IMG/VR virus record: IMGVR_UViG_3300028920_000314
Coordinates: 1-20,151 of that record
Length of the DNA stretch: 20,151 nt
Reading direction: 5' to 3' (one strand)
Origin: a virus
A program made the translations under genes and the position numbers. Position 1 is the stretch's first letter; each line of letters starts with the position of its first letter. This document shows, one piece after another, positions 1-9,259 of the stretch. The notes beneath the pieces were generated by a model. It made no database searches, was not told where the DNA came from, and saw only the letters and a list, made by a program, of their open reading frames with translations.

Positions 1-1601
1 ACCAATTCATCATGGATAGGTAGCAGCAGCTGTACAGCATCCCCACAGGCCTCCTGTAGGTATCTGGCTACCCTTACCTGGGCACGTTTTAGCACTCCAG
101 CTGCTGTACCCTGAATCAGGTAATTAGTGGATATATATGCCTTGTCCCTGTACACCTGGAGTTTCCTGCCAAATGGGGTTTTAATGTATCCCTTTTCCTT
201 TACTTCCCTGATCAGATTTTTGGATAGCCCCATGATACCAGGGAATTTTTGACCATACAGCTTTTTAACTTTCCTGGCTTCATCCCTGGGCAGCAAAATG
301 GTTTCTGCTAATCGTTTATCAGAGGCCCCATAGATAATTGCAAATTGTCCATTTTTTGCAGCACTTCTTAGGATCTTCTTTTTCTTTGTGTCCTGCTCAT
401 CCATAAATTTTGAACCATAGAAAATTGTAGCTGCCTCTGCATGGGGATCTCCACCACTTTCTACCAGGTCCACCATAGCCTGATCCTTGGAAACATTAAT
501 AGCCAGCCTCATTTCAATCCCAGCATAATCTACATGGAAATTCACATACCCAGGCCTTGCTCTAAAACACTTTCTGGCAGGAATAGGGTAGGGATTTGCC
601 AGGGCCTGCTCTTTACTCACATTTTGCATATTTGGCTTAGATGCAGATTGCCTACCAGTTTTCGCGCGATTTGTATTAATGGTACAATGCACCACAGAAT
701 TTTTATCCATGTGATCCAAATAACTTGCCACAATAGGGATTCCATGGGAATAAGATCTATGCTTAGATAGGGCATGCAGTACTGGGTGCTGGTAATCTTT
801 CAATAGGGCAAAGATAGCATCTTTGGATGTACTGGGCTGTCCTGTAGCTGTTAGCTTTGGGGGCATCATTTCCAGCTTTTGATATAGTAACCCAGCTACC
901 TGGGGGCTGCTATTCAGATTCAAATGTTCCCCATTAATGCTGTATACCTCATCATAGGCATCCTGTACCTTTTCCTCCAGATCTGCCAGCAGGGCCTCTG
1001 TATTTCGCTTATGGATCATAATACCCCTGGCCTCCATCCGCTGGGTGATGGGTATCAATACCATTTCATTCCAGTAATCTGCCAGCAGGGCAGCATCCTC
1101 CTGGATCTCTGGCCACCACAGCTGGAATAATAGCATAGTGCGTACCACATCATCTTTCTGGTATGCATCCATAATTTTTTTGGGTACTGTATGGTACCCT
1201 TTTCCACCCCTGGTGTATTTCTTCACTAATTCATCATTGGTAGTGGGATAATTACAAAGGGTGCTACAAAGTTTTTCCAGGGCATGGGTGGGGGCCAGGT
1301 TCTGTAGCATCTGGCTCATTATGATGGTATCATGGAATACTGTATTTTTGGGCACCTGGATACCCGCACCCAATATAGCAGCCAAATCAAATTTTAGATT
1401 ATGACATACCTTTGCAGTACTGGTATCATCAAACAGGGCCTGTAGGGCATCCATACTCTTTTTCCTCACACCCTTTTTCAGGCTATCTACTCTATGCACT
1501 CCCACATTCCCATCCTCATCTGCCCATGACCAGGAAAACATCTTGTGGCCTCTGTATAATTCGAATCCAGTAGTTTCTGTATCAAATGCTACAGCTTTCA
1601 T
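1..1601 (-). CDS. polA: DNA polymerase I, family A (3' end beyond window)
   Basis: Replicative or repair DNA polymerase of the phage. The first 533 codons, read from the reverse strand, are visible and the C-terminus is cut by the window edge. An N-terminal 3'-5' exonuclease domain is seen: Exo I FDTETTG (D7, E9), Exo II HNLKFD (D72), Exo III YQKDD (Y147, D151). The polymerase domain follows: TGRQSASKPNMQN at 315-327, motif A HVDYAGIEMRL (D358), motif B R412-K416-F420-Y424 in front of YG, and motif C HDE at 530-532 at the very edge. All catalytic carboxylates are present, so the enzyme looks active. There is no 5'-3' exonuclease domain, as in many phage polymerases. The residue matching E. 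coli Pol I F762 is Phe (F420). The ATG at 1601 overlaps the stop of the HNH gene (ATGA), suggesting coupled translation. Family assignment is firm. Confidence 0.96.
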   Translation of the reverse strand, partial: MKAVAFDTETTGFELYRGHKMFSWSWADEDGNVGVHRVDSLKKGVRKKSMDALQALFDDTSTAKVCHNLKFDLAAILGAGIQVPKNTVFHDTIIMSQMLQNLAPTHALEKLCSTLCNYPTTNDELVKKYTRGGKGYHTVPKKIMDAYQKDDVVRTMLLFQLWWPEIQEDAALLADYWNEMVLIPITQRMEARGIMIHKRNTEALLADLEEKVQDAYDEVYSINGEHLNLNSSPQVAGLLYQKLEMMPPKLTATGQPSTSKDAIFALLKDYQHPVLHALSKHRSYSHGIPIVASYLDHMDKNSVVHCTINTNRAKTGRQSASKPNMQNVSKEQALANPYPIPARKCFRARPGYVNFHVDYAGIEMRLAINVSKDQAMVDLVESGGDPHAEAATIFYGSKFMDEQDTKKKKILRSAAKNGQFAIIYGASDKRLAETILLPRDEARKVKKLYGQKFPGIMGLSKNLIREVKEKGYIKTPFGRKLQVYRDKAYISTNYLIQGTAAGVLKRAQVRVARYLQEACGDAVQLLLPIHDEL

Positions 1602-1921
1602 TTGCCCATCCCATTGTATTTGGTTTTGTGGGTATACTCTTTCATCCGCACCAGATTCACCCTCCTATTATCCAGCCTATTCCCATTCCTATGATGCACC
1701 ACATACCTGCCATGAGGATCTGCTATTAGTTTATGCATGTATACCCGCTTGCCATTTACTCTTGCCCTGGCATACCCCCTGCATATCCACCAGGAGTATT
1801 TATTTACAATGGCATAATCTTCCACACTATACCTTACTGTGAATCCATGCCCCAGATTTAGGATGTAGTACCATCCAGCTTTACTTTCATAGGCTTTTTG
1901 AATTAGTAATTCTGCCACCAT
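1598..1921 (-). CDS. HNH endonuclease, small free-standing type
   Basis: Putative DNA-nicking or cutting homing-type endonuclease of 107 aa. The HNH core is visible as MHKLIADP, then VVHHRNGNRLDNRRVNL at about residues 75-91, with the His pair and Asn residues in the expected places. In front is a segment (YAIVNKYSWW, then GYARARVNGKRVY) typical of phage HNH_3 proteins. The usual C-terminal AP2-like DNA-binding domain is absent: the protein stops just after HKTKYNGMGK, which resembles the first residues of such a domain, so this could be a naturally short or truncated form. Its start (ATG, with AGAGGGT upstream) lies 19 bases inside the preceding gene, and its stop overlaps the polymerase start. 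A position next to a polymerase gene is common for homing endonucleases; mobility here is inferred. Confidence 0.85.
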   Translation of the reverse strand: MVAELLIQKAYESKAGWYYILNLGHGFTVRYSVEDYAIVNKYSWWICRGYARARVNGKRVYMHKLIADPHGRYVVHHRNGNRLDNRRVNLVRMKEYTHKTKYNGMGK

Positions 1922-8020: not shown

Positions 8021-8052
8021 AAAAAAGTACCTGGCCACAGGCACCAGGTACT
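8021..8052 (-). terminator. Rho-independent terminator after the lysis gene
   Basis: Read on the minus strand, AGTACCTGG (8052-8044), a nine-base loop and CCAGGTACT (8034-8026) form a perfect 9-bp stem followed at once by five further Ts (8025-8021). It begins 34 bases downstream of the stop codon of the 232-aa lysis gene and would end the structural/lysis transcript. Confidence 0.9.
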
Positions 8053-8086
8053 CTGGAGGAAAGAAACAGAGGAAAGCAGTAGCTAT

Positions 8087-8785
8087 TTAAAAGGGTAGTT
8101 TGATTCCAAATTTGTGTTTCAGCAGATCCTTTGCAATGGTATATCCTGATACTACCAGGCCTGTAATCACTACACCCGAATCCAGCCCAGCATCCTCAAT
8201 AACACCAGCCACCTGGGGCAGGAATTTTTTAATCAGGGTAGCAATAATTAAACTGGCAGCTGTTACAGTTCCAGTTTTCTTAGCAGTGATAGCAGGTTTG
8301 TATGCTGTGGTCAAAGTCTTATTCAATGGTACCTCCTGAGTTTTATATGATGTAACCCTTACAGGTATTAACTCTGTAGGATTGTTTAGAAAAAAATCAT
8401 CAAAAAATTTTAGCAGATCCTCTGCATTGGAATTTTGGGTGCCTATGCATCCAGCTGTACCAGATTTATTTCCATCTGGATGGATAAGGTACCTGCTAAT
8501 AGGATCATGGCCACTATAAGTAGGGTAGGGCCACAGCCTAATTTTCCAAGGCCTGCCTGGTGCATCCTCTATATACATTTTATGTCTTTCCTGGGGTGCA
8601 GGTACCTCTGGGCCAGAATTGATAAACCAGGTTTTTTGTTCAATTGCATTTACTAAAGTACCCCTCCAATTACAGCTACCACTCCTACAGTACCACTGGG
8701 CCTTTATTCTATGCTTTTCAAACAATACCAGATAACCATACCCACGCTTATCATATCCAAAAGTAAATCTGAAAATATCCTGCAT
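8087..8785 (-). CDS. L,D-transpeptidase-like lysis protein with membrane C-terminus
   Basis: Predicted to act on peptidoglycan. Residues 99-116 carry RYLIHPDGNKSGTAGCIGTQ: His102 and Cys113 in the pattern IHxDG...GTxGCIG used by YkuD-like and related small Cys-His cell wall enzymes. The N-terminal region is aromatic-rich beta structure with a C33-x4-C38 pair. Residues 173-197 and 202-219 are hydrophobic, separated by a short acidic hinge (EDAGLDSG), and the end is basic (KHKFGIKLPF), resembling a small two-helix holin. One polypeptide thus seems to hold both an enzyme and membrane segments. AGGAGGT five bases before the ATG overlaps the previous stop. It is the last gene before the terminator. 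Enzyme class is moderately certain; membrane insertion is inferred from hydrophobicity and the actual reaction (cleaving or cross-linking) is unknown. Confidence 0.72.
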   Translation of the reverse strand: MQDIFRFTFGYDKRGYGYLVLFEKHRIKAQWYCRSGSCNWRGTLVNAIEQKTWFINSGPEVPAPQERHKMYIEDAPGRPWKIRLWPYPTYSGHDPISRYLIHPDGNKSGTAGCIGTQNSNAEDLLKFFDDFFLNNPTELIPVRVTSYKTQEVPLNKTLTTAYKPAITAKKTGTVTAASLIIATLIKKFLPQVAGVIEDAGLDSGVVITGLVVSGYTIAKDLLKHKFGIKLPF

Positions 8786-8787
8786 AG

Positions 8788-9081
8788 CTACCTCCTGATC
8801 ATACCCAAATCACTGGGATCTCCACCCAGTTTAGTTACCAAAAATATTAGGGCCTCCCTGATCTCTCTGTAGCTATCTGCATGCTGGTCAGATTCCCGCC
8901 CAATTCGTTCTCTGAATCTTCTGCAATCATCCTTACCACGTTTTTCATCTTCCAGGGCATCTATCCTGGATACCATATGCTCTGTGGATTTATCCCGCAG
9001 TTTCCAGAGAAAAATTATCACAGTGGGTACAGCCACTACCAGGCTACTGATTATCCCCACCATTAGAGGGTGCTGCATCAT
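8788..9081 (-). CDS. Single-span membrane protein, lysis-associated
   Basis: A 97-aa protein with one clear membrane segment (GIISSLVVAVPTVIIFLW, about 9-26), followed by a charged, probably helical domain with many Asp, Glu, Arg and Lys residues, then LIFLVTKLGGDPSDLG. This layout suits an inner membrane spanin subunit or a holin-associated protein; no lipoprotein partner gene is apparent within or beside it. A spaced AAGGA precedes the first ATG; the codon is doubled (MM). It overlaps the upstream coiled-coil gene by 38 bases and stands directly before the L,D-transpeptidase-like gene, so a lysis role is the best guess. Confidence 0.7.
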   Translation of the reverse strand: MMQHPLMVGIISSLVVAVPTVIIFLWKLRDKSTEHMVSRIDALEDEKRGKDDCRRFRERIGRESDQHADSYREIREALIFLVTKLGGDPSDLGMIRR

Positions 9082-9259
9082 TTTCAGGTTCCTTTTCTTT
9101 TTTCAGAACATCATTTTCTTTTTTCAGCTTTCCGTTTTCAACTATCAATCTGCGGATTTCATCACTCATAAAAGTGAGATTTTCAGTAAGGGTAGAGAGA
9201 TTCCTATGCACCTTATTCTCAATTACCTCAACTGATACACTCCGTTTGATTCCTTCCAT
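9044..9259 (-). CDS. Small coiled-coil protein
   Basis: A 71-aa soluble protein. Residues 20-55 show leucine-type heptads with charged flanks (TENLTFMSDEIRRLIVENGK onward), ending in a polar tail PENDAAPSNGGDNQ. No membrane segment. AGGAGGAAGGA directly precedes the ATG. The gene overlaps the membrane protein gene by 38 bases, which implies linked translation and perhaps a physical partnership through coiled coils (inference). No family recognised. Confidence 0.7.
   Translation of the reverse strand: MEGIKRSVSVEVIENKVHRNLSTLTENLTFMSDEIRRLIVENGKLKKENDVLKKEKEPENDAAPSNGGDNQ

Follow-up and report, generated by a model that had tools for sequence, protein, structure and literature searches.

Can one phage gene supply both a lysis enzyme and a holin? 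In textbook lysis the two are separate proteins, and the endolysin waits in the cytoplasm while the holin acts in the membrane. The question is raised by a 232-aa ORF (8087..8785, minus strand; ATG start, taken from the ORF list and its translation) in a 20,151-base virus record, the whole of which we call the window. The gene comprises an enzyme domain, a linker and a two-helix tail, and a first-pass annotation had read it as a cell wall enzyme of the L,D-transpeptidase type joined to a small holin-like domain in a single polypeptide.

Gene context and the YkuD-fold enzyme

The 232-aa gene is transcribed in the late direction, and the gene order is tape measure, tail and fibre-like genes, then the 232-aa gene, then helicase genes. 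Its Shine-Dalgarno sequence, AGGAGG at 8791-8796, stands 5 nt before the ATG and is overlapped by the end of the 97-aa gene upstream. Directly behind the gene lies a strong intrinsic terminator (8024..8054, minus strand) with a 12-pair stem and a T-run (-18.2 kcal/mol, z -3.0). This site between tail genes and terminator is a usual one for a lysis cassette, and the proposed lysis role gains support from position both in the window and in the relatives described below.

The 97-aa protein upstream of the enzyme gene (8788..9081, minus strand) has one strong N-terminal transmembrane helix (residues 6-28, dG -0.98) and, by charge, an N-out/C-in layout. The protein matched no family above cut-off in Pfam, PHROG or NCBIfam; a DUF2730 match was not listed at E up to 10, in a search whose HMMER filters drop most weak matches. 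Its size and layout are those described for Mu gp25 (PMC9239132), and it is in layout that it resembles the Mu gp25/DUF2730 releasins. We regard it as a candidate separate holin or releasin-like protein. A coiled-coil-like 71-aa protein with its own AGGAGG start is encoded at 9044..9259 (minus strand), and its YabA-like matches are all below threshold. Elsewhere in the window, the helicase gene retrieved no related phage from viral_contigs, and a 107-aa ORF (1598-1921, minus strand) contains an HHRNGNRLDNR stretch that by eye resembles an HNH homing endonuclease.

Residues 1-146 (8348..8785, minus strand) were modelled confidently by AlphaFold2, with pLDDT mostly > 90, and the model, its VIA-align matches and its identity to relatives define a YkuD-fold catalytic domain. 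The nearest solved structure was B. subtilis YkuD (1y7m; Z 12.3, rmsd 2.2 over 107 residues in VIA-align), followed by the L,D-carboxypeptidases Csd6 and Pgp2 (Z about 11), L,D-transpeptidases and Tlde1a (Z 10.3); the structural matches listed for this domain were all L,D-transpeptidases, L,D-carboxypeptidases or Tlde1a. A sequence-profile search of the PDB yielded designed trefoils only, through their short PDG motif. Residues 99-116, YLIHPDGNKSGTAGCIGT, contain H102 (codon 8480-8482) and C113 (codon 8447-8449, both on the minus strand) within the catalytic domain. When back-translated, the pattern HPDGxxxGxxGCIG occurred once in the window and in 0/100 shuffles, and H102, G112 and C113 were invariant in all 12 aligned sequences, with the whole motif invariant or nearly so. 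The Cys-His motif noticed at first pass is therefore real.

The 232-aa protein scored 18.2 bits against Pfam YkuD (PF03734), under the gathering cut-off of 23.4, and its relative L135 cleared that cut-off with 24.4 bits. Judged by sequence, the protein is thus a divergent branch of YkuD and not an outsider, and fold, motif and the L135 score together bear out the earlier assignment to YkuD-type enzymes. It shares the fold and the Cys-His site with the PF03734 family, Csd6 and Pgp2, but differs in its score below the Pfam cut-off, the lack of a signal peptide and its phage context. The classical L,D-transpeptidase motif is SHGC-x-R; the motif here ends GC-I-G instead. Tlde1 (PF10908) and DUF5675 (PF18925) are weakly matched by HPDG...GCIG relatives such as L027, whereas the 232-aa protein matches neither in Pfam and has a distinct N-terminal half as well as the tail. 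The candidate endolysin of Vibrio phage Martha 12B12 (VPCG_00031) is presumably of the DUF5675 type. We know of no enzyme activity for the subfamily of the 232-aa enzyme, and from its context we infer hydrolysis rather than transfer.

To place this domain among its relatives, we searched with the whole protein and with its motif. As a query, the whole 232-aa protein found no direct homologue in viral_contigs or phages. A scan with the enzyme motif pattern gave 62 loci, and five close relatives emerged from motif scans (L014/L064, L033/L065, L066/L127, L076 and L135). L064, L065, L066 and L076 were 35-42% identical to the enzyme domain, and L135 joined them by profile (E 5e-36). The profile of the close relatives also reached a broader HPDG...GCIG group, including L027 (1.8e-12) and L063 (3.6e-10). 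The pattern W-K-x-R-x-W...HPDG had 47 hits in genome_contigs, with L076 the only true relative, and the enzyme family was found in no other of the 168 genomes of the L076 phylum.

Where the context was readable, the enzyme of the relatives came behind tail genes or other late genes and frequently had small membrane proteins as neighbours. It stands alone in L064, L076 and L135; in L064 and L076 the gene after it overlaps or abuts it and encodes a small membrane protein. Other architectures were also seen. The protein at L065:1552-2853, a locus that shares its contig with L033, combines the enzyme in one chain with a patatin-like phospholipase (Pfam E 4e-15), and so pairs a wall enzyme with one that putatively acts on membrane lipids. 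At L127:913-2028 (L066/L127) the enzyme carries a C-terminal domain of ~190 aa with no Pfam family; we had considered a permuted NlpC/P60 domain, a name that Pfam did not support and that we dropped. At L135:11445-12220, the gene that overlaps and follows the enzyme may, by eye, contain a similar domain. L076:4121-5486 lies in a Fibrobacterota bin, in an apparent prophage with a terminase-like gene. There the enzyme is flanked on one side by an OmpA-family protein (Pfam E 1e-9; hydrophobic N-terminal segments, lipobox-like site) and on the other by an 89-aa one-helix protein, a possible lysis cassette of a Fibrobacterota phage.

The linker and the two-helix tail

The catalytic domain is followed by a basic linker (residues 147-170; 8276..8347, minus strand; net charge +4) that is predicted to be disordered, with pLDDT < 50 for 149-174. 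Next come two weakly hydrophobic helices, at residues 171-189 and 199-218 (8132..8275, minus strand; from dG and model helices), around an acidic hinge (190-202, net charge -3), and a basic C-terminal tail with the stop codon (residues 219-232; 8087..8131, minus strand; net charge +3). The hydrophobic segments, acidic hinge and basic end described at first pass are thus present as stated.

These two helices were also the top membrane-insertion segments, with apparent dG of 1.46 and 2.03 kcal/mol; their Kyte-Doolittle maxima (1.55 and 1.42) fall under the usual 1.6. On the same dG scale, which uses published position-dependent parameters and has lambda S and lambda R as its only check, the lambda S holin helices gave -0.04, 1.92 and 2.52, and the best segment of soluble lambda R gave 5.9. 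We then asked how often such segments are paired within 80 residues among 49 coding-strand ORFs of at least 60 aa from the window and two related phage loci. Two ORFs had such a pair: the 232-aa protein and the ORF that immediately follows the L064 enzyme gene. Of 2000 shuffles of the tail that preserved its composition, 44 reached the segment pair.

In the models, the tail formed helices at 176-198 and 203-226; they are 23-26 residues long, and a short turn connects them (pLDDT 54-78). Modelled by itself, the tail folded into a hairpin of so general a shape that a fold search with it would not be informative. Helix 2 is evenly hydrophobic and not amphipathic, and K186-K187 lie near the end of helix 1. 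With +4 in the linker, -3 in the hinge and +3 in the tail, the charges agree with an N-in/C-in hairpin. Structure prediction thus gave no confident soluble helix fold for the tail, and the membrane hairpin, modelled at low to middling confidence, is a putative one.

Searches with the tail alone of Pfam, PHROGs (best, phrog_9875 at E 0.1), phages, plasmids, viral contigs and the fetched loci gave no homologue. The same searches of Pfam and PHROGs matched no wall-binding family; homologues with a wall-binding domain had been named at first pass as the finding that would speak against a holin-like part. We also tried kinship with lambda S TM2-TM3 and rejected it: an HMM of 11 lambda-type holins gave 0.6 bits, equalled by 199/1000 shuffles. 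Pairwise comparison with the neighbouring membrane proteins of the relatives stayed at chance level; the result for the 89-aa protein of L076 (19/1000 shuffles) is unremarkable among 7 tests.

Because the hairpin has no detectable relatives, the label "holin" rests on size, charge pattern, position and a hydrophobicity that equals that of the lambda S helices on this dG scale. Class II holins, such as the pinholin of phage 21, are small proteins with two helices and an N-in/C-in topology. The hairpin resembles them in charge pattern and, by prediction, in size and helix number, but we found no sequence relation, and it is a putative hole former. The proposed fusion of enzyme and holin is plausible: hydropathy, charges and the predicted hairpin speak for it, while the low model confidence, the missing homologues and the failed lambda S test speak against it.

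An internal start and A-run junctions

If the tail acts as a holin, is it made only as part of the enzyme? We noticed a second Shine-Dalgarno sequence, AGGAGG, inside the gene (8332..8337, minus strand), laid out as at the gene's own start. It precedes a TTG at 8324-8326 (Leu154) in the arrangement AGGAGG-N5-TTG and predicts a nested in-frame ORF of 79 aa (8087..8326, minus strand). The internal start, AGGAGGTACCATTG, and the gene's own start, AGGAGGTAGCTATG, have the same layout and the same 5-nt spacing. The predicted 79-aa product begins in the linker and includes the entire hairpin.

How much weight does this site bear? Among the other AGGAGG-N5-NTG sites on the minus strand, 8/10 start genes or listed ORFs, two of these (sites 7032 and 4045) being ORFs of 70 and 58 aa. 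The remaining two are GTG sites inside genes that apparently are not gene starts, one out of frame (11226) and one in frame within an AAA_24 ATPase gene (3274), where it could start a C-terminal product. Under synonymous recoding, internal in-frame sites averaged 0.54 across all genes of the window, and 4.75% of recodings of the 232-aa gene produced one. The region of the internal start is predicted to be weakly structured. Given the two recoding values, we consider the sequence evidence for an internal start moderate; it is strengthened by the site falling right on the domain junction. These features suggest that the hairpin may also be made alone as a holin-sized protein. The single polypeptide of the first-pass annotation is accordingly borne out as a 232-aa ORF and is probably incomplete as a description, since a start at 154 predicts a separate hairpin.

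That an endolysin gene can carry a second, in-frame start is established for phages of Gram-positive hosts; their short product is the C-terminal, mostly wall-binding, part (PMC9430671, PMC4777826, PMC7098653). CTP1L, LysIME-EF1 and LysP7951 share with the 232-aa gene a start signal that is internal, in frame and in the linker (PMC4777826, PMC7098653, PMC9430671). Unlike in those enzymes, the short product here would be a holin-like membrane hairpin and not a wall-binding domain.

A different arrangement with a similar predicted outcome was found among the more distant relatives. In ~40 viral contigs (L003-L062), a 3-TM holin-like protein is followed by a related HPDG...GCIG enzyme across an A9-A11 run (for example at L032:3804, L004:706 and L027:5229). 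The holin frame stops just past these 9-11 A, which also mark the opening of the enzyme frame. In most loci the enzyme is out of frame with the holin, in -1 at about 24 distinct junctions and in +1 at one, counts drawn from interrelated contigs in which homopolymer assembly errors are possible in single cases. With 11 A, in L027 and L059, holin and enzyme are in frame and form a 318-aa fusion; L050 is cut, yet resembles these two, and L032 has an L027-type junction with 10 A, out of frame. No ATG, GTG or TTG precedes the catalytic motif in the enzyme frame of L008 and L023, and in many other A-run loci the first start codon of that frame is a TTG within the enzyme domain. A/T runs of at least 9 occur at about 0.3 per kb in these loci, yet one lies at the holin-enzyme junction throughout.

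The holin-like part of L027 matched phrog_2524, of unknown function (E 1.5e-18), and Pfam GTA_holin_3TM at 18.9 bits, below cut-off; a gene of Pseudoalteromonas phage ACA1 that is 41% identical to it is annotated as a holin. Slippage or frameshifting at the run would give a free holin and a holin-enzyme fusion. We found no report of holin-enzyme slippage at an A-run in the paper library searched. The A-run loci would provide a predicted, independent precedent for a free holin alongside a holin-tethered enzyme.

Proposed mechanism and competing explanations

Taken together, we tentatively favor reading the 232-aa protein as a tailed phage's lysis enzyme, a YkuD-fold domain attached to a holin-like hairpin that is also made as a free 79-aa protein. 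The cysteine peptidase would probably cut peptidoglycan L,D bonds at diaminopimelate. The hairpin, with both ends cytoplasmic, would tether it to the inner membrane; since a signal peptide is absent, the enzyme would stay on the cytoplasmic face and wait there for the hairpin layer to open, whereupon it would gain access to the wall along the lesion's edge. Translation from the second ribosome-binding site, where the two domains meet, would give the hairpin alone, so that the membrane assembly would hold both free and enzyme-bearing hairpins. We put forward with more doubt the wider proposal that one gene in one frame encodes a lysis pair of permanently tethered enzyme-holin and free holin, the two parts thus being assembled together, the ratio of starts setting the timing and poly-A slippage serving the same end elsewhere.

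Several observations weigh against the tethered enzyme with a free hairpin. The helices are weak, the model is of low to middling quality and the hairpin has no homologue; the transmembrane helix of the 97-aa gene is better and could belong to the holin; the internal start codon is TTG, at a site that recoding produces in 4.75% of cases. The internal in-frame site of the AAA_24 gene lacks an obvious domain boundary, and such sites therefore also arise without one.

The main rival takes the hairpin for a membrane anchor or an envelope-disturbing tail and assigns the role of holin, or of a Mu gp25-like releasin, to the 97-aa protein. We think this possible, with doubt. The 97-aa protein holds the strongest transmembrane helix of the cassette and has the size and layout of Mu gp25 (PMC9239132), and small one-helix proteins adjoin the enzyme in L076 and L064 too. 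No match to DUF2730 or another family was listed for it, however; hydrophobicity is spread evenly around helix 2 of the tail, which is not amphipathic, and a plain anchor would need neither an acidic hinge nor an internal start.

Less probable is the loss of a stop codon that fused two genes, in which case the internal Shine-Dalgarno and TTG would be leftovers and the fusion alone would matter now. Enzyme and membrane protein are indeed adjacent, overlapping genes in L064, and in L065 and L066 the downstream domain is a C-terminal fusion. But the internal Shine-Dalgarno is perfect, its spacing is that of real starts in the window and the site is predicted to be weakly structured.

We consider it improbable that the protein, instead of serving lysis, alters the host wall as a membrane-bound L,D-transpeptidase or carboxypeptidase, for example to exclude other phages or to resist premature lysis. 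YkuD enzymes mostly cross-link or trim, and fold alone does not distinguish hydrolysis from transfer; against this, the window proteins tested included no other candidate lysis enzyme, and the relatives occupy the same position, next to membrane genes of lysis type, one of them fused to a phospholipase. Least probable of all is a soluble two-helix module for oligomerisation or wall binding outside the membrane, for which the weak hydrophobicity, K186-K187 and a model confidence too low to decide could be cited, and against which stand the charge pattern, helices of 23-26 residues that fit a membrane hairpin and the absent wall-binding match.

How does a tethered enzyme with a free hairpin compare with known systems? 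In S. aureus phage 187, a holin gene is embedded in the endolysin gene, out of frame. There, as proposed here, holin information lies within an endolysin gene, but the hairpin of the 232-aa gene shares the reading frame and the polypeptide of the enzyme. Clostridium sporogenes TpeE is a natural holin-endolysin fusion and, like the 232-aa protein, joins both in one polypeptide (PMC9527704). It differs in that its holin is N-terminal, with one helix and an amphipathic helix, in its enzyme and in that an internal start was not described (PMC9527704). We found no description of a holin-like tail released by an in-frame internal start from an enzyme of the L,D-transpeptidase type.

YkuD-type lysis enzymes in phages are, as first suggested, uncommon, though they have precedents in the Martha 12B12 candidate endolysin (PMC9239132), in YkuD-type phage entries of BFVD and in the loci described here. 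This divergent YkuD branch, with its several fusion partners, adds to the few candidate lysis enzymes of this fold in phages. If the tethered enzyme and the free hairpin are both made, then together with the predicted A-run route in a second phage group they would make tethering a recurrent design, whose effect on the timing of lysis would be directly testable.
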